Source of the DNA: a virus
Virus record (IMG/VR): IMGVR_UViG_3300046321_000063
Coordinates: 1 to 46,356 of that record
Strand: one strand, 5' to 3'
DNA: 46,356 nucleotides
The number at the start of each line of letters is the position of its first letter. The stretch's first letter is position 1. This document shows positions 4,064 through 45,895 of the stretch, in pieces. Below the pieces are notes generated by a model that had not been told where the DNA came from, ran no database searches, and saw only the letters and a list, made by a program, of their open reading frames with translations. The position numbers and the translations under genes were made by a program.

Positions 4064-4074
4064 GGTAGGTATCT

Positions 4075-4230
4075 ATGAATACTACTACTAAACTACTTAT
4101 AGCTATAGGTGTATTCGTACTATCTTTTTTATTATTATTAGGAGGAACATATCTTATTGTTCCTCTTATAATTGCAGCTATTGTTTATGGTTTCTTAAAT
4201 GAAACTAAAGACAATGATGATACTAACTAA
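4075..4230 (+). CDS. 51-residue membrane protein
   Basis: A short frame of 52 codons starting at ATG 4075 with AAGGTAGGT just upstream, in line with the operon. The protein is almost entirely hydrophobic between residues 6 and 42 (KLLIAIGVFVLSFL, then YLIVPLIIAAIVYGF), giving one long or two short membrane segments with a charged tail ending KDNDDTN. Its stop overlaps the end of the convergent virion RNA polymerase gene by eight bases, so it closes the replication operon with no spacer. A perfect 8-bp inverted repeat (4142-4149 / 4158-4165) lies within it. Function unknown. Confidence 0.6.
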   Translation: MNTTTKLLIAIGVFVLSFLLLLGGTYLIVPLIIAAIVYGFLNETKDNDDTN

Positions 4231-7200
4231 TAACATTTAATAATGGATTATGTGCAGCAGGACGTAATAAGTTATTAACTCCTACTCCTGAGAAGTTAGT
4301 AACAATATTATCTTGTATTGGTGTACCTAATCCATAAGCAGGAAGTTCTGATGCAAACAATGATCCAAGCAATGATTTGAACGGATTATTGACAATCATT
4401 CTTCCTGCTACTTTTAATGATCTTATTTTAAAATTCCAAAACCATAATAATCCAACAGACTCTAAATACGATCTAGTACGTCCAGGTAAAAAATTATAAT
4501 TAATAAATTCCTCAGATACTAATCGTTTAGCATTTTCCATATCCATATTTTGATTTTCTACTAAATGATTATAGTAAATTGCTTTACTAACATAATCACT
4601 ATACAAAACAGTTTGTACTAAGCCTTTATATAACGCAGTATCTTTAGCTACAATAGCATACTTACTAACTGTTTTTAATGATTCAGGTATCTTACTATTT
4701 ACTTTTTTTGTATCTACAATTTTATTAATTTGATTATTTAAAAACTCTCCAATATTATTTGCAGATAACAATCCATCAATTTCACTAACACCTTCATTAA
4801 CAGCAGAAAACTCTCCAGCATCAACTAATGGTTTAATAGATAAATTATTTAAAACTTCTTCAATAACTTTAAGTTCTTGTTGTAATTTCTTCTTTGTTGG
4901 TTCATCAACAGAAGGTAATATTGTGTTTATCTTAATTTCTCTTAATTCATTTTTATGATAAAGTTTTAATTCAGATAACGCTTTTAAACCATTTTTAGCA
5001 ATGTATGTTAATGGTACTCCATTCATCACTAATTGTAATATATTACTTGCTGTATTAGAAGCAGGGACAACAATAGATTTTAAATAAATCCATTCTTTTG
5101 TGTATTTAACATATTCTTGTAATCCATCTTCAGCATTTTTAAGATATATATACGCTTTTGATCCAAGAACTAATCTCATCATTTTTTCAATAACATCTTT
5201 TGTTTCTTTTGATAATTTTGTTTTACCAGTAAATAAATCACTAACAGAAGGTAATCTATAACCTAATGAATTGTTTATTAAATCATTTCTAACAAAGAAT
5301 TTATCTTTACCAAATACAGATTCTATATATGTTTTTGTTTCACTAGGGATAACTCTCCATGTATCTTTGATCACTGGATCAATAGATGTAGCAATATTTG
5401 TATATGTACTTTTATCAAAGTCATTTTTGTATAAATCGAATGTTCTATCAATAAGTTTGTTATTAAACTCTTGTGTTAATTGTTCCTCAACTTGTCTTGA
5501 TTTCATTATCCCCATAAGGTTTGTTAAGTCTTTTTCTTGGTTCAATAAATCTAACATATTTTGACGCATATTACGTTGATAAGCAATAATTGTACCTTTT
5601 AATCCAATCACAGGAATATATGATTCTGCTGCATTAGGATTGTTCTTTGTAGCATCATAGATCTTATCAATAGATAAAGTGTCTGTAATATAATCAGCAA
5701 ACTGTCCTGTCATATCTTGACCACTGTAAACATTCATACCATTAATACTGTTATTAACAGTCTGCATAATACCTTGTAAATATGGTGAACCAATAACAGA
5801 AGATAAATAATATCCTTTTTTTACTTTTGATACTGGATCAGTGTAATCACCTACTCTAACAAATCCATCTTCTAATAGCTTTAGTTTTTGTGTGTCTGTG
5901 GCTATGATTAATTTCTTACCATCTCTGATAGAGAATGGTAAATATCCTTTTCTACGGTTATACTTATTGATTTCTGAACCAAGAGTTTTATTATTTTCAT
6001 TCTGATTAAGCTCATGTAAATTACTTAATAAGATATGTAATCCACTTGTATCATTTTTAATAAGATCTCTTAATTCTTGTTTATTGCTATCTGTTGTTTG
6101 TTGAAAAGCATACAATGAAACTAAATGATCAATATCTTGTACAACTGTATCACTTGGATCAACATCTAAAAAATTACTTTCTCCTGCTAATATACTGATA
6201 CTGTTAGCATTAGTAAGTAAATTAAATCCTGCTGAACCAGTGATTAAATAATTAGCTAATTGTTTAGATTTTCTAATATAATCTTTATTCTTTAATCTTT
6301 TTTCTATAATAGATATTTCTTCTTGAACATTTTTATCGCTTGATAATATTTTAAATATCTCATTAAATGATCTTGTTGATCCAAGAGAAAATATATCTGT
6401 TTTACCAACTGTAGTAGTTAAATTTTCAAATACTTTATTATCAGGATTTGTTTTAAATTCTTCTTTTATGTTTTGTGGTAAAATTGTTTTATAAGAATTT
6501 TTAACAGATTGTACTTTGTCTTTAACAATGTTCATTAAGTTTTCAATATTTTCACTTGTAACAGTCTTACCAACAAGTTCTTTAAATATGTCTTTTAGTG
6601 CTTGTGGTAGTTTAGTATCTGATTTACCAATCAATGCTGATGCTCGATCAAATGCAGCACTTATAGCATTAGTTTTAAACACATCTTTGTATTTATCATC
6701 TGTAACTTTATTAAATAAATCAACAACTGCTGTAGTTATCTTTCCATCAATATTATATTTTGTTTGGTTCAATCTTTCTAATTCATCTAATGCTTCTAAT
6801 TCACTGTTTAAATAATCAACTGTAATACCATTCATCAATGTAGCACCATTACCAACTACATTTACTGGATCAATAGAATTTAAAATGTCTATTTTTAAAT
6901 TATTTAATTTATCAGATATTGCTATACCTGTTAATTTATTTTCTTTAAATATAAGTCTTGATAATACATCTTGAACCATAGAATTAGTCTGAGATAGTGC
7001 AAAAAATACTTTTAAATTATTTTCATTAAATCCAGTCATATTCTCATATTTAAGTCTTGCTTGATTTTCTGTTGTGTTTGAATCAATAAAATCTTTATAA
7101 GATACTTCGTTAATAAATTTATTATAGACTTGTTGTAATTTATTAATGTTATAAGATTTGTTTACTAATCCTAAATCAAATAAATTCATTAAATTTTTAA

Positions 7201-28061: not shown

Positions 28062-30074
28062 CTAATTAACTATTGCATTTTGTATATTTGATGCTGTTGA
28101 CGTTTTATTACCTTTAACAGCTTTAACTCTAAAATTATATGTACCTGTTGTAAGTCCAGTTACTGTAGTTGATTTAACTGTAGATACGCCATCATTAAAT
28201 ACAATCCAATCATCAGCAGCTGCTAATTTATATTCAATAATATAATTAGTTACACCAGTGTCATTGTATAATGCCCATAATAAACTTACATTTTCACCAC
28301 TAACAGTTGGTACATCTAACACAGGTCCAATCATTAAACCTAATGAAACATTTGTAGTTGAACCATTACTATTAATAGCTACCACTTCAAATGTAAATTC
28401 ACAACCTACATCTGTTGGTGTAAGTAAATATGTATATGTTGTTGTACCTGTAAAATTAACACCATCACGTTTCCATTGTACAACGTAAGAATCTACAGTA
28501 TGAAACCATGTACCATTATCAGCAGTCAATACTGAACCAGTAAAAGGAGATCCAGTAATTTGAGGTCTGCCAGCAGCTGTAGCTGATAAAGCTGGATCTA
28601 ATGGGAATCTTGCTATTGGGTACACAGGAGCAAGATTCCCAATTAAAATATTAATAACAGTATCTTTTGGACTATTACTAACAGAAGCTAATGTTTCTCT
28701 GATAGTAATATTATGTTTGTACCCTTCACTAAAATCTATATCAGCATTAACTAAAATATTATTACCAGATAGAGAAAATCTACCGCCAGCACCATTAACA
28801 AGAGATACTATTGAACCATCTTGAAAATTAAACAATGTGCCAACAACCGTACCTATAGAACTATGTTCTCGTACAATATTATTTGTTATATGTACTCGTT
28901 TTAATGTAACACTTTGTACACCTAATAAATCACTAAGTATAGGTATTAAAGGTTTACTTAAATAATAATGTCCTAACTTACTAGGGTGAACTACATCGCC
29001 ATCAGCGAATAACCCATTAGCACCAGTAGTAATTGTACCTGTTAGTGGGTGAAAGTTAGCGTGTGTTTTACTAGGATCAGCAAAATCACAAAGATAATCT
29101 ACACCATAACTTAAACAACCTGTTGCAGGATCTCTTCTTTTTTGATTAAAATCATGTATTCGTTGGTTCAAAGTAGTATCATCTGTTCGTCTTATATCAG
29201 TTACTGCAATAATTTTTGTATTCGGGTGATCTTCTTTAAATTTTAATATAGCATCTTTTTCTATATCAAATAACTCTTGGGCAGTTAGTGATGTATCATA
29301 AGCAGTATCATTTGTACCAAAGCCTATTAAGATAGCACTATTAGTATTTAGATTCATAGTCTTGTATATCTGATTGTATTTTAAATTAAAGACATGGATA
29401 AAATCTACTTGATCTTCTGTACCTACAGTATTTGCATAACTTGCACCACCAACAGCGATTTTATGTACTGCTATTTTATCACCAAGAAACAGTCTATCAC
29501 CTTCAGGACTCACTGGTTCTTTAGAATTAAAATAAGATTCTGATCTTACATTTGTATCAACAGCTTCTATAGCTAATCTTGAATAATGAAATTCCTCCAT
29601 ACCATCAAAATTAAGCGTATAAATTTCTGTAGATGTAGGTGTTTTAATTCCTACACCATAATCAATACTGTCTCCTGCTATATAAACATTAAATAGTGAA
29701 GGGTGCATATGTTGTTGGTTTGGAGTACCATTACCAGTACCGCTAATAATATTAGTTGCTGAAGCAGTAGCTTCTTCAGCATCATCTAAATAAGGTAATA
29801 AAGCATTTTTTAATGCGGCTGATACTTTTAATACTGTACTTTTTGGTGGAGGTAACGCACTACTATAAGCTTCAGCAAGATCTGCTGACCTACATAAAGC
29901 AACAGTTTTATTACCAACTAATGTACCAATAGCTTCAATAGTTTGCCGTTGAGTTAATGTAGTAGGATAAACATTATCACCTACTGTACTATTAACTATA
30001 GGCGTACTATCATTTACAGATCTCAGAGTATCTGTTTTACATTTAATATACCAAAATTCTGTAGCTTCTGTCAT
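28062..30074 (-). CDS. tail protein with SGNH/GDSL esterase and Ig-like domains
   Basis: A 670-residue protein. The central enzyme shows all SGNH blocks: IAGDS with Ser136, FGTNDT with Asn255, and DVVHP with Asp360 and His363. After it come a cadherin-like beta domain (about 393-485, REHSSIGTVVGTL), an immunoglobulin-like domain with VVQWKRDGVNF (about 500-580) and a fibronectin type III domain at the end (about 590-668). SGNH hydrolases in phage tails commonly remove acetyl groups from surface polysaccharides. It lies between the lysis genes and another tail protein, whose gene ends one base before this one begins, so it is part of the adsorption apparatus. Enzyme class is secure; the substrate is unknown. 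Confidence 0.82.
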   Translation of the reverse strand: MTEATEFWYIKCKTDTLRSVNDSTPIVNSTVGDNVYPTTLTQRQTIEAIGTLVGNKTVALCRSADLAEAYSSALPPPKSTVLKVSAALKNALLPYLDDAEEATASATNIISGTGNGTPNQQHMHPSLFNVYIAGDSIDYGVGIKTPTSTEIYTLNFDGMEEFHYSRLAIEAVDTNVRSESYFNSKEPVSPEGDRLFLGDKIAVHKIAVGGASYANTVGTEDQVDFIHVFNLKYNQIYKTMNLNTNSAILIGFGTNDTAYDTSLTAQELFDIEKDAILKFKEDHPNTKIIAVTDIRRTDDTTLNQRIHDFNQKRRDPATGCLSYGVDYLCDFADPSKTHANFHPLTGTITTGANGLFADGDVVHPSKLGHYYLSKPLIPILSDLLGVQSVTLKRVHITNNIVREHSSIGTVVGTLFNFQDGSIVSLVNGAGGRFSLSGNNILVNADIDFSEGYKHNITIRETLASVSNSPKDTVINILIGNLAPVYPIARFPLDPALSATAAGRPQITGSPFTGSVLTADNGTWFHTVDSYVVQWKRDGVNFTGTTTYTYLLTPTDVGCEFTFEVVAINSNGSTTNVSLGLMIGPVLDVPTVSGENVSLLWALYNDTGVTNYIIEYKLAAADDWIVFNDGVSTVKSTTVTGLTTGTYNFRVKAVKGNKTSTASNIQNAIVN

Positions 30075-39441: not shown

Positions 39442-39603
39442 GTGTGAAATCTATATAATATAGTGATAAGTATAGAGTGTAAATATCTAATATTTTTTAT
39501 TATTAATTTTCTATAGAATATAGGTTTATATGCAGAGTGTTCCTCCTAGGGAGGTATATATACAAATAAATTATATCCCCCCCCCTATACATCGTATAAC
39601 ACA

Positions 39604-39623
39604 GTATGCAAGCATACCAGTGG
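39604..39623 (+). promoter_or_regulatory. vRNAP-type hairpin promoter candidate 1
   Basis: Perfect inverted repeat GTATGC-AA-GCATAC (39604-39617), then four bases CAGT, then GG at 39622-39623. N4 virion RNA polymerase promoters are small hairpins closed by GC pairs, followed by four bases and a GG start, with the loop centre about 11 bases before +1; the geometry here is the same, so +1 would be 39622. The second candidate at 40098 shares the loop, the spacing and the downstream GTGG-Y-AAT-N-AT. It sits 34 bases before the ATG at 39656 and its ribosome binding site. Confidence 0.7.
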
Positions 39624-39655
39624 CAATCATGCCTAACAATATAGGAGAACATACC

Positions 39656-39964
39656 ATGTCAGGTATCTTTAAATCATTCCAATCTACAACTGTACAGACT
39701 CTTACATCAGTTGGATCAGCATTCAATATGATCAATGATGGAATCACTATGGCAGCAAATGTCATAGAACGTCATAAACATAGTCAGCTTGTAAATAAGC
39801 AAGCAGACATTGATACTCTTGTCACCAATCATCGTAAAGAATTGGTAGCAACAGTACAACAAACATACAAAGAAGTCCTTGATTTAAAAGAAAAAGAACA
39901 AAATACTTTTAACATGGCACTAGAACTTCTACAATTCGATGAACTTCTACGCATCAAAGCCTAA
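39656..39964 (+). CDS. first early protein, unknown function
   Basis: A 102-residue protein starting at ATG 39656, chosen because AGGAG lies about 9 bases upstream and the hairpin promoter candidate would start transcription at 39622; an in-frame ATG at 39530 would lie before that start. The protein is helical: an amphipathic N-terminus (SGIFKSFQSTT), a middle helix (MAANVIERHKHSQLVNKQA), then a charged coil (KEVLDLKEKEQN). Codon choice is less AT-biased than most neighbours, with several GTC, CTT and CGC codons, suggesting strong expression. It is a single-gene unit closed by a terminator 12 bases later. No family recognised. Confidence 0.75.
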   Translation: MSGIFKSFQSTTVQTLTSVGSAFNMINDGITMAANVIERHKHSQLVNKQADIDTLVTNHRKELVATVQQTYKEVLDLKEKEQNTFNMALELLQFDELLRIKA

Positions 39965-39975
39965 ACATATACTAA

Positions 39976-40008
39976 AGACTAGAGAGCAATCTCTAGTCTA
40001 ACTTTTTT
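39976..40008 (+). terminator. rho-independent terminator after first early gene
   Basis: A perfect 10-bp stem (39976-39985 with 39990-39999; arm AGACTAGAGA) capped by a GCAA tetraloop (GNRA type), followed by AAC and six T (40003-40008). The left arm begins inside a repeated block, CTAAAGACTAGA (39972-39983), which recurs at 41197-41208. Confidence 0.9.
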
Positions 40009-40097
40009 AACACATAACACATTGGATAGTATATAGATTGCGTAAGTAAGCTATTTATCTAGTGTATCTTAAAGATTATCTATGTGTCATCATTGTT

Positions 40098-40117
40098 GTC
40101 AGCAAGCTGACTTGTGG
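40098..40117 (+). promoter_or_regulatory. vRNAP-type hairpin promoter candidate 2
   Basis: Perfect inverted repeat GTCAGC-AA-GCTGAC (40098-40111), then TTGT, then GG (40116-40117), the same layout as the candidate at 39604. Conserved between the two: GT at the 5' edge, GC-AA-GC at the loop, AC at the 3' edge, then two variable bases and GTGG, Y, AAT, N, AT. The arms differ but remain complementary, which is compensatory variation. A start at 40116 gives a 62-base leader to the gene at 40178. Confidence 0.7.
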
Positions 40118-40177
40118 TAATAATAATTTACCTTACTGCAAATATAATTAACAACATATAACAACAGGAGAATATAT

Positions 40178-40751: not shown

Positions 40752-41174
40752 ATGGCTTACATTTCAAAAACAAACAGAACAGCAGACATCAATAAAGCAT
40801 TTAACATATTCAATACAGAAGATGTTAAACCAACAACTGAACCAAAGAATAACATTTGGTTAAATATTGGTATCATAACAATGGTAGAGAATGAAGATGG
40901 AATAGAAGAAGAACAATTCATTAGTTTACCAATTAATATATCATTAGATATGATTCAAAACTCTACTAATTATAAATATTTAATGAGTGGTAAATCTTTA
41001 TCACCATTGAGTGTTAAAAAGAGAAATCTTATTAAAGCAATCGAAAAACAAATGTCAACTTTAGACAATAATAATCCAACTTATGATTCAAAATTGAATG
41101 TACAATTCTACAAAGAATTACCAAAAGAAGCTCAAATTATTGAAAATGAAGATGAATTTATTGATCTAATTTAA
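40752..41174 (+). CDS. conserved-looking early protein, unknown function
   Basis: A 140-residue acidic protein with a strong ribosome binding site (CTCAGGAGAAA). The segment NIWLNIGIITMVENEDG followed by EEEQFISLPINISLDM looks like a small beta-sheet domain, and the C-terminus is acidic (IENEDEFIDLI). It stands alone between two terminators (40675-40698 and 41248-41285), so it seems independently controlled. No promoter hairpin of the type seen at 39604 and 40098 is visible before it; it may be reached by read-through. Confidence 0.7.
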   Translation: MAYISKTNRTADINKAFNIFNTEDVKPTTEPKNNIWLNIGIITMVENEDGIEEEQFISLPINISLDMIQNSTNYKYLMSGKSLSPLSVKKRNLIKAIEKQMSTLDNNNPTYDSKLNVQFYKELPKEAQIIENEDEFIDLI

Positions 41175-41194
41175 GCTCAACTTTATATATCAAA

Positions 41195-41354
41195 ACCTAA
41201 AGACTAGATTTTTAATATTTTACAAAAATACCTAAACATACACTAAACAACAACATAGAGAAATCTGTGTTGTTGATTTTTTTTTGTAAAAACAGATAGT
41301 AACCTAAAGATTAACACCTTAAATTTATAAAAAAATACCTAAAGGATACCTAAA
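41195..41354 (+). repeat. ACCTAAA direct repeats upstream of the RNAP1 unit
   Basis: Five copies of ACCTAAA occur in a 182-base gene-free stretch: 41195, 41230, 41302, 41337 and 41348, all on the plus strand, the first two 35 bases apart and the last two 11 bases apart, immediately before ATG 41357. Two longer blocks recur from 39960-39983: CTAAAGACTAGA exactly (41197-41208) and CCTAAACATAYACTAAA with one difference (41231-41247). Possible binding sites for a phage regulator or polymerase cofactor. Confidence 0.6.
41248..41285 (+). terminator. terminator upstream of RNAP1 unit
   Basis: A perfect 8-bp stem (41248-41255 with 41268-41275; arm CAACAACA), with a 12-base loop that can pair further (AGA/TCT), followed by nine T (41277-41285). 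It separates the gene at 40752 from the RNAP1 unit, which must therefore have its own promoter between 41286 and 41356 or depend on anti-termination. Confidence 0.85.
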
Positions 41355-41356
41355 GA

Positions 41357-41898: not shown

Positions 41899-42675
41899 AT
41901 GGACAATGAATTAGAACAACTATTTGATAACAGACTTAAATTTAAATTATTATTGGATACATTAAATAATCCAGATTTAATATCTTATTTAAAAGATAAT
42001 AATATACCAGAGAAATTTGGTCTTATGTTATTGGTTCAGATGAACTTATTTGAGATAGCTAATATAGAAACACTTGTAGGTGTATTACAGACACAATGTG
42101 ATAACATACAAGAATGTGCTAATCTATTAGAACAAGCAATAGAACTAGATCTTGTAGATTATAATGGTGATTGGTTCATTGTAAGACATAAATTCAAACC
42201 AGATTTATTACAGAAAGTTAAATCATTAATATATCCATTACCAATGACTACTGAACCAGTAACATTAAAAACTAACAATGATAGTGCATATAGTTATATT
42301 GGTTCAGAAAGTGTAATACTCAAACCTAAATTAAATTATCATAATAATGAAGTATGTTTATCTCATCTTAATAAAATGAATAAGATTGCTCTTAGTATTA
42401 ATAATATTAATAAGACTAAAAATAAAGTTAAACCAAAGAAAGACGATACACAGTTAAAAGTGAACCAGAAACAACAAAGACTTAATAAATTTATGTCTGA
42501 AGTTAATGATGTTTATAGTCATCTTATGATGCAAGGTAATAAGTTTTATCTAGCACATAGATATGACAAACGAGGTAGAATATATTGTTCTGGTTATCAT
42601 ATAAATTATATGGGAAATGAGTATCAAAAATCAATAATTGAATTATTTAATAAGAAAGTAATCAAAGATGAGTAA
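41899..42675 (+). CDS. RNA polymerase II subunit 1 (N4 RNAP1 type)
   Basis: A 258-residue protein whose C-terminal part matches the T7 RNA polymerase region around the DxxGR motif: YLAHRYDKRGRIYCSGY, with Asp223, Gly226 and Arg227, followed by GNEYQKSIIELFNKK, which aligns with the T7 segment after DWRGR. The first 150 residues would be the N-terminal domain. It ends shortly after this motif, just where the N4 enzyme is split into two polypeptides, and its size is near the N4 subunit (about 269). It would pair with the protein encoded at 44705 to transcribe middle genes. It overlaps the next gene by eight bases. Confidence 0.88.
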   Translation: MDNELEQLFDNRLKFKLLLDTLNNPDLISYLKDNNIPEKFGLMLLVQMNLFEIANIETLVGVLQTQCDNIQECANLLEQAIELDLVDYNGDWFIVRHKFKPDLLQKVKSLIYPLPMTTEPVTLKTNNDSAYSYIGSESVILKPKLNYHNNEVCLSHLNKMNKIALSINNINKTKNKVKPKKDDTQLKVNQKQQRLNKFMSEVNDVYSHLMMQGNKFYLAHRYDKRGRIYCSGYHINYMGNEYQKSIIELFNKKVIKDE

Positions 42676-42923: not shown

Positions 42924-43352
42924 ATGGGAGCAGGTTGTTACTATACAAACAAATACTATGATAAAGATAACCATGAACAGTATGTTAAAGCTGTATGGTT
43001 AGATATTGATCCAGAAGATGAATATGATTATTCTGATCAAATGAGTAATCTATTTCATGATTTAAAATCAATATTAAATGTAGTTTATAGTGATGATAAA
43101 GATTATGAAATTCAAACCTTATTATATAAAATATCATTTGAATCAACATATTATGGAGATGGTATCATTATTAAACAAACGTGTTTATTAAATGATGCAG
43201 ACTATCTTGAACCAAATGAAATAAAACTAAGAAACTTAGCAAACTATAACTTTGAAAAGAATTATTATTCAATGATTAATAAACTTTGTAAACTTGGTTA
43301 TAAGTTTAGAATAGCAACAAGTAATTACACGTCAGGAGAATATCAACTATGA
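42924..43352 (+). CDS. hypothetical protein, 142 residues
   Basis: A soluble acidic protein beginning MGAGCYYTNKYYDKDN. The middle has DIDPEDEYDYSDQM, a strongly acidic helix start, and the C-terminal part KLCKLGYKFRIATSNYTSG looks like a compact alpha/beta end. The short N-terminal GxGCYY with tyrosines is reminiscent of other small phage proteins but no family can be named. It overlaps the following gene by four bases (ATGA). Confidence 0.65.
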   Translation: MGAGCYYTNKYYDKDNHEQYVKAVWLDIDPEDEYDYSDQMSNLFHDLKSILNVVYSDDKDYEIQTLLYKISFESTYYGDGIIIKQTCLLNDADYLEPNEIKLRNLANYNFEKNYYSMINKLCKLGYKFRIATSNYTSGEYQL

Positions 43353-44221: not shown

Positions 44222-44452
44222 ATGGCAAAACAAATATCTGTAAAAAGATTTAAAAAAACTAATTTAAAAGAATGTCCTAAATGTAAAACAGATAAATTAT
44301 ATATAAGATATAGATCTGGACTCTCAAAAAATAAAGTACCTTTTTTCTTTGGTTCAATAAAATGTTTAAATTGTAGGCATTTAGTAGAAGCCACAAATCC
44401 AACAAAATTAATTAGAATATTTGGAAAAAAAGATAATGATAACAATTTATAG
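44222..44452 (+). CDS. small zinc-ribbon protein
   Basis: A 76-residue basic protein with two CxxC knuckles: Cys18-Pro-Lys-Cys21 and Cys48-Leu-Asn-Cys51, separated by 26 residues of beta-like sequence, the standard zinc-ribbon layout also seen in Lar-type restriction-alleviation proteins and transcription factors. The N-terminal basic stretch (KQISVKRFKKTNLK) could bind nucleic acid. It overlaps the PhaR-like gene by 17 bases, which in turn precedes RNAP2, so a transcription role is plausible. Zinc binding is secure by motif; the function is inferred. Confidence 0.75.
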   Translation: MAKQISVKRFKKTNLKECPKCKTDKLYIRYRSGLSKNKVPFFFGSIKCLNCRHLVEATNPTKLIRIFGKKDNDNNL

Positions 44453-44678
44453 ATATTCAAACTTTAGAAGATTATATATAAAGAAAAAAGGATTTATAAA
44501 CTACAATTACATATATTCATTAGTATGGAATAACATACCATTTCAAGTCTTGGATCATAAAACAAATATTGATCTAACCTATCCTGTAAAAATATCAATG
44601 CTAAAGGAACACTTACTAACAAATAAACATAAATTATCTGATGATAAAATCAGAGAACTATTACAAGCTACAGACTAA
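44436..44678 (+). CDS. PhaR-type DNA-binding domain protein
   Basis: An 80-residue protein starting at ATG 44436 (GGAAAAAAAG upstream; a TTG five codons earlier is less likely). The sequence IYRYSNFRRLYIKKKGFI, then LVWNNIPFQVLDHKTNIDLT, follows the pattern of the N-terminal DNA-binding domain of PhaR, the polyhydroxyalkanoate regulator (I-K-K-Y-x-N-R-R-L-Y, then LV-x-x-G-x-x-F-x-V-x-D-x-K-T-x-x-D-L-T). The protein is only this domain plus a short helix, without the usual C-terminal granule-binding part. It ends 26 bases before the RNAP2 gene and may regulate transcription for the phage. Confidence 0.7.
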   Translation: MITIYRYSNFRRLYIKKKGFINYNYIYSLVWNNIPFQVLDHKTNIDLTYPVKISMLKEHLLTNKHKLSDDKIRELLQATD

Positions 44679-44704: not shown

Positions 44705-45895
44705 ATGACAATTACAAAGTACACAGGTTTACAGTATTTAGCTATCGACATAGCAAATAACTTCTCTAAAGATTTAGAAAAACAAAACTTTGAAGTCAGA
44801 CTTGAATGGTTTGAAAACAATAAAAATAACCTTTCTGAGCTTAATAACCAAGCAGATGAACCAAACCTATACCTATGTGGTTTACAAGCCTATAATGACT
44901 ATTTAAATGGATCTCCGTCAGGTTATCTTATATCACAAGATTCATGCTCGTCAGGAATACAAATATTATCAGCATTTATGGGTTGTAGAAAATCAGCAGA
45001 AGTGTGTGGGTTAATATCAACCAACAGACAAGATGCTTATACCAACATTTATAACAAAGTTGTTAAAGATGATAGGTTAGAACGTAAAGATGTAAAAGAA
45101 GCTATAATGACAGCATTTTATAGCTCTACAGCACAACCCCAAAGAATATTCGGTAAAGGTGAGTTGTTGGATCAATTCTATCAAACACTTGAATCAGATT
45201 TACCTGGAGCATATTTACTAAACAAATCAATAGAAACTCTTTGGAATAATAAAACATTGGTTCACGAATGGATTATGCCAGATGGATTCCATGTTTATAT
45301 CCCTGTTAAAGAAAAGGTAGAGAAACAATTTACATTCTTGAACCAACAACATAAAATCATTGTTGAAGAAAATAAATACTCTAATAATTACAGATCTCTT
45401 ACTGCCAATGTTTGTCATTCGACTGATGCTTTCATTGTTAGAGAGATGGTTCGGAGATGTAATTACAATGAAGATCAATTATTAAATATCTTAACTCTAT
45501 CACCAAAAGAACATGATGGTAGAGAAAGAACCAAAGATGTTAAACTGAATAACTTATTAATGTTACAAAAAGAAACTAAGTTTTATAGCTTAGAGATCTT
45601 AGAATACATTGATGAGTATAATCTTAATTTAATTGATATGGTTCAGTTAAGATCAATAATTGAGTCTTTACCTAGTGAACCATTTGAAATGTTAGTGATT
45701 CACGATGCGTTCAAATGTTTACCTAACTATGGTAATGATGTTAGGCAACAATATAATAATATTATGGCTGAAATTAGTACAAGTAATATTTTACAGTATA
45801 TTGCTAGAACATTAACAGGTAATAGTAAAATTGCTGTTGATAAGATTGAAAATATTTCTAATGATATTAGAAATTCTGAATATGCGTTAAGTTAG
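44705..45895 (+). CDS. RNA polymerase II subunit 2 (N4 RNAP2 type), catalytic
   Basis: A 396-residue protein, close to the N4 subunit (about 404). Motif A: SQDSCSSGIQ with catalytic Asp79, like DGSCSGIQ in T7. Motif B: RKDVKEAIMTAFYSS with Arg127, Lys131 and Tyr139 at the exact R-x3-K-x7-Y spacing; Ser140 replaces the usual Gly after the Tyr. Motif C: IHDAFKCLPN with His333 and Asp334. The distance from motif A to B (52 residues) is shorter than in T7 (94). With RNAP1 it forms the full polymerase used for middle transcription in N4. AGGAAAAGTAT precedes the start, and a terminator follows the stop. Confidence 0.93.
   Translation: MTITKYTGLQYLAIDIANNFSKDLEKQNFEVRLEWFENNKNNLSELNNQADEPNLYLCGLQAYNDYLNGSPSGYLISQDSCSSGIQILSAFMGCRKSAEVCGLISTNRQDAYTNIYNKVVKDDRLERKDVKEAIMTAFYSSTAQPQRIFGKGELLDQFYQTLESDLPGAYLLNKSIETLWNNKTLVHEWIMPDGFHVYIPVKEKVEKQFTFLNQQHKIIVEENKYSNNYRSLTANVCHSTDAFIVREMVRRCNYNEDQLLNILTLSPKEHDGRERTKDVKLNNLLMLQKETKFYSLEILEYIDEYNLNLIDMVQLRSIIESLPSEPFEMLVIHDAFKCLPNYGNDVRQQYNNIMAEISTSNILQYIARTLTGNSKIAVDKIENISNDIRNSEYALS

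Follow-up and report, generated by a model that had tools for sequence, protein, structure and literature searches.

A small gene in a phage early region

What does a small gene that resembles the DNA-binding half of PhaR, a bacterial regulator of carbon storage, do directly before the gene for a phage RNA polymerase subunit? The gene lies in a 46-kb IMG/VR virus fragment with a GC content of ~28% (here called the window, that is, the whole stretch of 46,356 nucleotides that was analyzed), in which a tRNA search found none. The window belongs to an AT-rich N4-like (Schitoviridae) phage, and its RNAP2 is at most ~43% identical to those of isolate Schitoviridae. The PhaR-like gene sits in the plus-strand (early/middle) gene block, which includes the following features.

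39581-39964, plus strand: N4 gp1-like RNAPII cofactor, a marginal assignment (phrog_5020, the family of N4 gp1 itself, E 4e-4)
40752-41174, plus strand: N4 gp2-like RNAPII cofactor (phrog_4099, the family of N4 gp2 itself, E 2.2e-15)
41899-42675, plus strand: RNAP1, N4 gp15-like subunit (phrog_2166, E 1.2e-58)
44222-44452, plus strand: zinc-ribbon-like ORF of 76 aa (CPKC...CLNC), taken from the ORF table, with weak zinc-ribbon/Lar matches only
44436-44678, plus strand: stand-alone PHB_acc_N protein of 80 aa (PF07879 match, AF2 model, charge)
44705-45895, plus strand: RNAP2, N4 gp16-like subunit of the heterodimeric T7-type RNA polymerase (phrog_2051, E 1.3e-133; PF00940, E 1.5e-10)

The 80-aa ORF begins with ATG and ends with TAA, and a gap of 26 bp separates it from the start of RNAP2. 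Its start shares 17 nt with the 3′ end of the zinc-ribbon-like ORF, and the two genes are possibly translationally coupled. The similarity of the zinc-ribbon-like ORF to Lar (restriction alleviation) is weak and under the cut-off. Elsewhere in the window, a putative tail protein (28062-30074) has a fibronectin III domain and, with a score below cut-off, a GDSL-lipase-like region.

Assignment of the 80-aa protein to the PHB_acc_N family

The sequence-only reading had described the protein as a PhaR DNA-binding domain without the granule-binding C-terminal region, based on the motifs YSNFRRLY and FQVLDHKTNIDLT, both of which are present in the translation. When the profile search against PF07879 (PHB_acc_N) was run, a match was obtained at 29.2 bits (E 9.7e-7), above the curated gathering cut-off of 25 bits, with residues 4-58 aligned to positions 2-56 of the 61-position profile. 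The description of the C terminus also held, as the protein ends at residue 80 and no match to the granule-binding family PF05233 was listed at E ≤ 1. When we compared the PF07879 motifs Y-x-N-[RK]-[RK]-L-Y and D-[IL]-T, the 80-aa protein was found to keep Y7, N9, D46, and T48, while RRLY is there but one residue off (NFRRLY). Against the PhaR equivalog TIGR01848, the protein scored 24.2 bits and did not reach the cut-off of 109.45; we rejected its assignment as a PhaR orthologue on this large shortfall and on the missing C-terminal part. No cellular PhaR is more than 41% identical to it, and its closest named match, at 39% identity, is a Legionella PhaR encoded within a pha cluster. PHROGs returned nothing convincing (best E 0.18), and the protein is in neither phrog_5020 nor phrog_4099.

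Three features could suggest that the resemblance is accidental and that this AT-rich (K/N/I/Y-rich) ORF encodes no PHB_acc_N protein: the Pfam score is only 29 bits, the composition of the ORF is biased, and the RRLY signature is out of place. However, the score exceeds the curated cut-off, and a bacteria-only profile made of seven bacterial PhaR-type N-domains gave 34.7 bits for the 80-aa protein, compared with 16.4 bits for the top of 20,000 same-composition shuffles. With a further profile, made from bacterial and non-N4 phage sequences and without the window protein, we ranked 25,755 frames from N4-like loci. The 80-aa protein came first, and frames outside two related lineages scored no more than 11.2 bits; it is thus the sole such match among thousands of N4-like frames, joined by a second, syntenic copy described below. 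On the shuffles and the ranking of frames, we rejected the chance explanation, which we regard as very improbable. Taken together, the TIGR01848 shortfall, the PF07879 match, and the shuffle scores therefore indicate that the homology is real, that the protein is not PhaR, and that the granule-binding half is missing. On sequence grounds, we assign it as a diverged stand-alone PHB_acc_N protein.

Short PHB_acc_N proteins in environmental phages

PhaR-type and phage-type alignments, used to scan viral contigs, yielded 33 distinct PHB_acc_N proteins, 28 of them 70-141 aa long and one of 169 aa; four proteins of 170-185 aa at contig ends resemble ordinary bacterial PhaR. The contigs are up to 191 kb long, and in several of them genes that are clearly of phage type (terminase, RIIA/RIIB, DNA polymerase) lie close by. 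The cellular set comprised 398 genomes of Pseudomonadota, the phylum to which a Magnetococcales genome belongs; the 80-aa protein hit 43 of them, and all 43 had open frames of at least 142 aa at the matched site. The short phage proteins (L090, L093-L111, and L217-L237) share with the window protein their size class, their architecture, and their being phage-encoded. Two contigs, L090 (4308-4773) and L103 (5001-5240 and 7099-7392), each encode two tandem or nearby paralogues, and in a 141-aa phage protein (L230, 5001-5156 and following) PHB_acc_N runs into an alanine/serine-rich C-terminal stretch.

PHROGs provided no convincing family for ten of the short phage proteins. A tblastn search of INPHARED with the 80-aa protein and two phage homologues found no isolate-phage relative, a tblastn search of isolate phages with the Legionella PhaR gave noise only, and our literature search on PF07879 or PhaR with phages found no paper on a phage version among the titles listed. 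A little-noticed set of stand-alone PHB_acc_N mini-proteins occurs in many environmental phages. An NRKLY signature is retained in these proteins, which cluster loosely with one another in a tree of poor resolution; there, the window protein is a long branch nearer to proteobacterial PhaR than to the short phage group. Because of this position, the window protein may represent a capture separate from that of the other phage versions, although the tree, with few columns, long branches (window and L007), and cellular rows picked by similarity to the window protein, gives no secure placement for the window or L007 proteins.

Conservation of the gene before RNAP2 in a second N4-like lineage

Apart from another contig of the same species (L001), the nearest lineage to the window is represented by L007, L081, and L082, whose RNAP2 is 50% identical to that of the window. 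These contigs group with the window (support 99/87), with L013 outside. Directly before RNAP2, L007 has an 87-aa ORF (5645-5908) for which PF07879 was the sole Pfam match at E ≤ 10, at 17 bits and thus under the cut-off. With the profile without N4-like sequences, this ORF scored 22.8 bits, second after the window protein among the 25,755 N4-like frames and above the best of 20,000 shuffles (18.4). With the bacteria-only profile, its score merely equals that of the best shuffle, and we therefore regard its homology as good, though short of overwhelming. The elements of its predicted fold follow the order seen in the window protein, although both predictions were made from one alignment. The NRRLYDT signature, altered in the window protein, is lost in the L007 ORF. 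The profile scores and gene order thus make a good case that the L007 lineage carries an even more diverged, syntenic version of PHB_acc_N. We also observed a 142-aa protein encoded between RNAP1 and RNAP2 in the window (42924-43352), whose 65%-identical counterpart in L082 (9457-9888) lies downstream of RNAP2; genes have thus been shuffled, and the PhaR-like gene is still found directly before RNAP2.

Of 58 distinct N4-like RNAP2 loci of full length, two have the gene and 56 lack it, and it was not found in L013, which has both RNAP1 and RNAP2. No PhaR-like gene was detected in the N4 record or in the other N4-like records searched, nor immediately before RNAP2 elsewhere among N4-like phages; in Rhizobium phage X3_15, this slot is occupied by an ExoX-C-like protein. 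Among N4-like phages, the PhaR-like gene is known from two lineages only.

The location of the gene had led to the suggestion that its product is a specificity or activator factor for RNAP2. As an accessory factor of RNAP1/RNAP2, the protein would bind duplex middle-promoter DNA or the polymerase and give promoter specificity in this clade. There is precedent for such a factor, as N4 RNAPII requires cofactors: gp1 and gp2 are the known ones, and a further protein, "X", that melts duplex DNA has been postulated (PMC4496689). The position of the gene is also suggestive, since it is kept directly before RNAP2 in two lineages in which the rest of the RNAP1-RNAP2 interval contains different or relocated genes. 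Like the 80-aa protein, N4 gp1 and gp2 (the latter a single-stranded-DNA-binding protein) are small and belong to the same early gene block as RNAP1 and RNAP2, but neither has any sequence relation to it, and both have relatives of their own elsewhere in the window, for which reason we rejected a replacement of gp1 or gp2. The PhaR-like gene is missing from N4 and nearly all of its relatives and therefore cannot encode a general factor X, a candidate that we likewise rejected. Moreover, T7-type RNA polymerase (PF00940) was found in 0 of 17 non-N4 contigs that carry PHB_acc_N, some of which are fragments, whereas the same search does recover RNAP2 in the window. Given these carriers, the absence of the gene elsewhere, including the sister lineage L013, and the gp1 and gp2 relatives, the argument for an RNAP2 cofactor therefore comes down to synteny, and we consider this role unlikely. 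The 80-aa protein is neither an N4 RNAPII subunit nor a known RNAPII cofactor.

A cluster of ACCTAAA repeats had been put forward as a possible target of the protein. The cluster is real: five copies (41195-41354) fall in one 182-bp intergenic region (41175-41356) between the gp2-like gene and a 178-aa ORF before RNAP1, a region that also contains a terminator-like hairpin with a T run, and the plus strand of the whole window has 17 copies. However, the repeat was not found in the equivalent region of L082, so its role as a binding site of the 80-aa protein is not supported. By eye, we spotted several terminator-like hairpins with a GCAA or GAAA loop (AGAGCAATCT / AGAGAAATCT) in both lineages, in window regions 39965-40177 and 41175-41356 and in L082 regions 4067-4305 and 5005-5157.

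Predicted structure and comparison with PhaR

The AF2 model of the 80-aa protein is confident (pLDDT 85, pTM 0.69) and shows the order b-b-b-a-b-a-a, with a third helix predicted at residues 69-77. The N-terminal hairpin is basic; the net charge of the first 25 residues is +6, and it was positive in all other members for which it was computed. No convincing solved structure emerged when the PDB was searched by sequence and by fold with the 80-aa protein. The sole significant fold match was A0A516M636 from BFVD (E 5e-4, probability 1.00), an unnamed 83-aa viral protein that shares the fold and 26% identity.

PhaR binds promoters through its N-terminal region and is pulled off by PHB (PMC3079617). 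The window protein is homologous to the N-domain of PhaR/AniA (TIGR01848: PF07879 plus PF05233) over ~55-75 residues, and the two have in common the basic hairpin, the D-L-T motif, and the helix that follows. In contrast to PhaR, which is ~120-220 aa long, the window protein has 80 aa and no PHB-binding domain; it is also phage-encoded, is located outside any pha locus, and has an altered NRRLYDT signature. As for pha loci themselves, a 49.6-kb plasmid record of Legionella adelaidensis (L003) contains two phbB genes, a 121-aa PhaR-type regulator, a phasin gene, and phaC, and this cluster adjoins mutM, smc, and a zipA-like gene, a combination unusual for a plasmid.

The proposal that the protein takes over control of host carbon storage is plausible in principle. 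The protein would then be a PhaR mimic, an untitratable domain that sits on the sites of host PhaR at phasin, depolymerase, and central-carbon promoters and thereby diverts carbon in the infected cell. Even with PHB granules present, the phaP promoter is repressed by residues 1-106 of R. eutropha PhaR (PMC3079617), and a PhaR domain without its granule-binding part has been proposed as a constitutive form for engineering (PMC12542648). That the top named match is a PhaR from a pha cluster fits this scenario as well. Nevertheless, the recognition motif has changed in the window protein and has disappeared altogether from the second lineage, identity to cellular PhaR is low, and no PHB-related Pfam match was found among the other window proteins scanned; we give the mimic a low probability.

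The domain might instead have been repurposed as a small adaptor or inhibitor that binds a host protein such as RNA polymerase or, as a dominant-negative partner, PhaR itself, and not DNA. The protein is very small and fast-evolving and is encoded within a block of small early genes. Because PhaR is a tetramer (PMC10888616), a short version could co-assemble with it, and LSDDKIRELL, the remnant of a C-terminal helix, can be aligned with LSPDVLRQLI of the Legionella PhaR. The basic N-terminal hairpin is, however, kept in all members computed, as for a nucleic-acid binder, and we regard the adaptor as rather unlikely.

A proposed role in early transcription

We propose, with about an even chance of being right, that this fast-diverging stand-alone PHB_acc_N domain serves as a small, early regulator of transcription that binds DNA and lacks a PHB sensor, a proposal in line with the 28 short phage carriers as opposed to the long proteobacterial frames. 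The protein would be made early, together with RNAP1 and RNAP2, would form a small oligomer, and would contact DNA through its basic N-terminal hairpin, thereby regulating transcription at phage or host promoters. Unlike PhaR, it would not be titratable off DNA by PHB granules; the repression by residues 1-106 of R. eutropha PhaR in the presence of granules fits this view. Against the proposal stand the altered or lost NRRLYDT signature, the lack of a convincing match for the fold among solved structures, and a search of the window for a PhaR-type operator (YGCRNYGCR), which found none. One passage in the literature reports that Paracoccus PhaR without residues 73-195 (about residues 1-72 left) lost DNA binding (PMC3079617); by analogy, a domain of ~80 aa may not suffice for DNA binding unless the third helix provides oligomerization. 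In the model, this helix may supply what the truncated Paracoccus protein lacked.

A more far-reaching scenario, which we consider improbable, is that several unrelated phage lineages took the DNA-binding half of PhaR without the PHB sensor as a constitutive mini transcription factor, and that the AT-rich N4-like clade wired it to RNAP1/RNAP2 middle transcription as an extra promoter-recognition factor.

As no solved PHB_acc_N structure was found, the phage versions of 70-100 aa may be good targets for crystallography or NMR. Within the N4-like clade, the 80-aa protein could control middle transcription in a clade-specific way, a possibility that can be tested. More broadly, that many environmental phages carry PHB_acc_N on its own points either to a new class of mini transcription factors in phages or to a route to host carbon storage.
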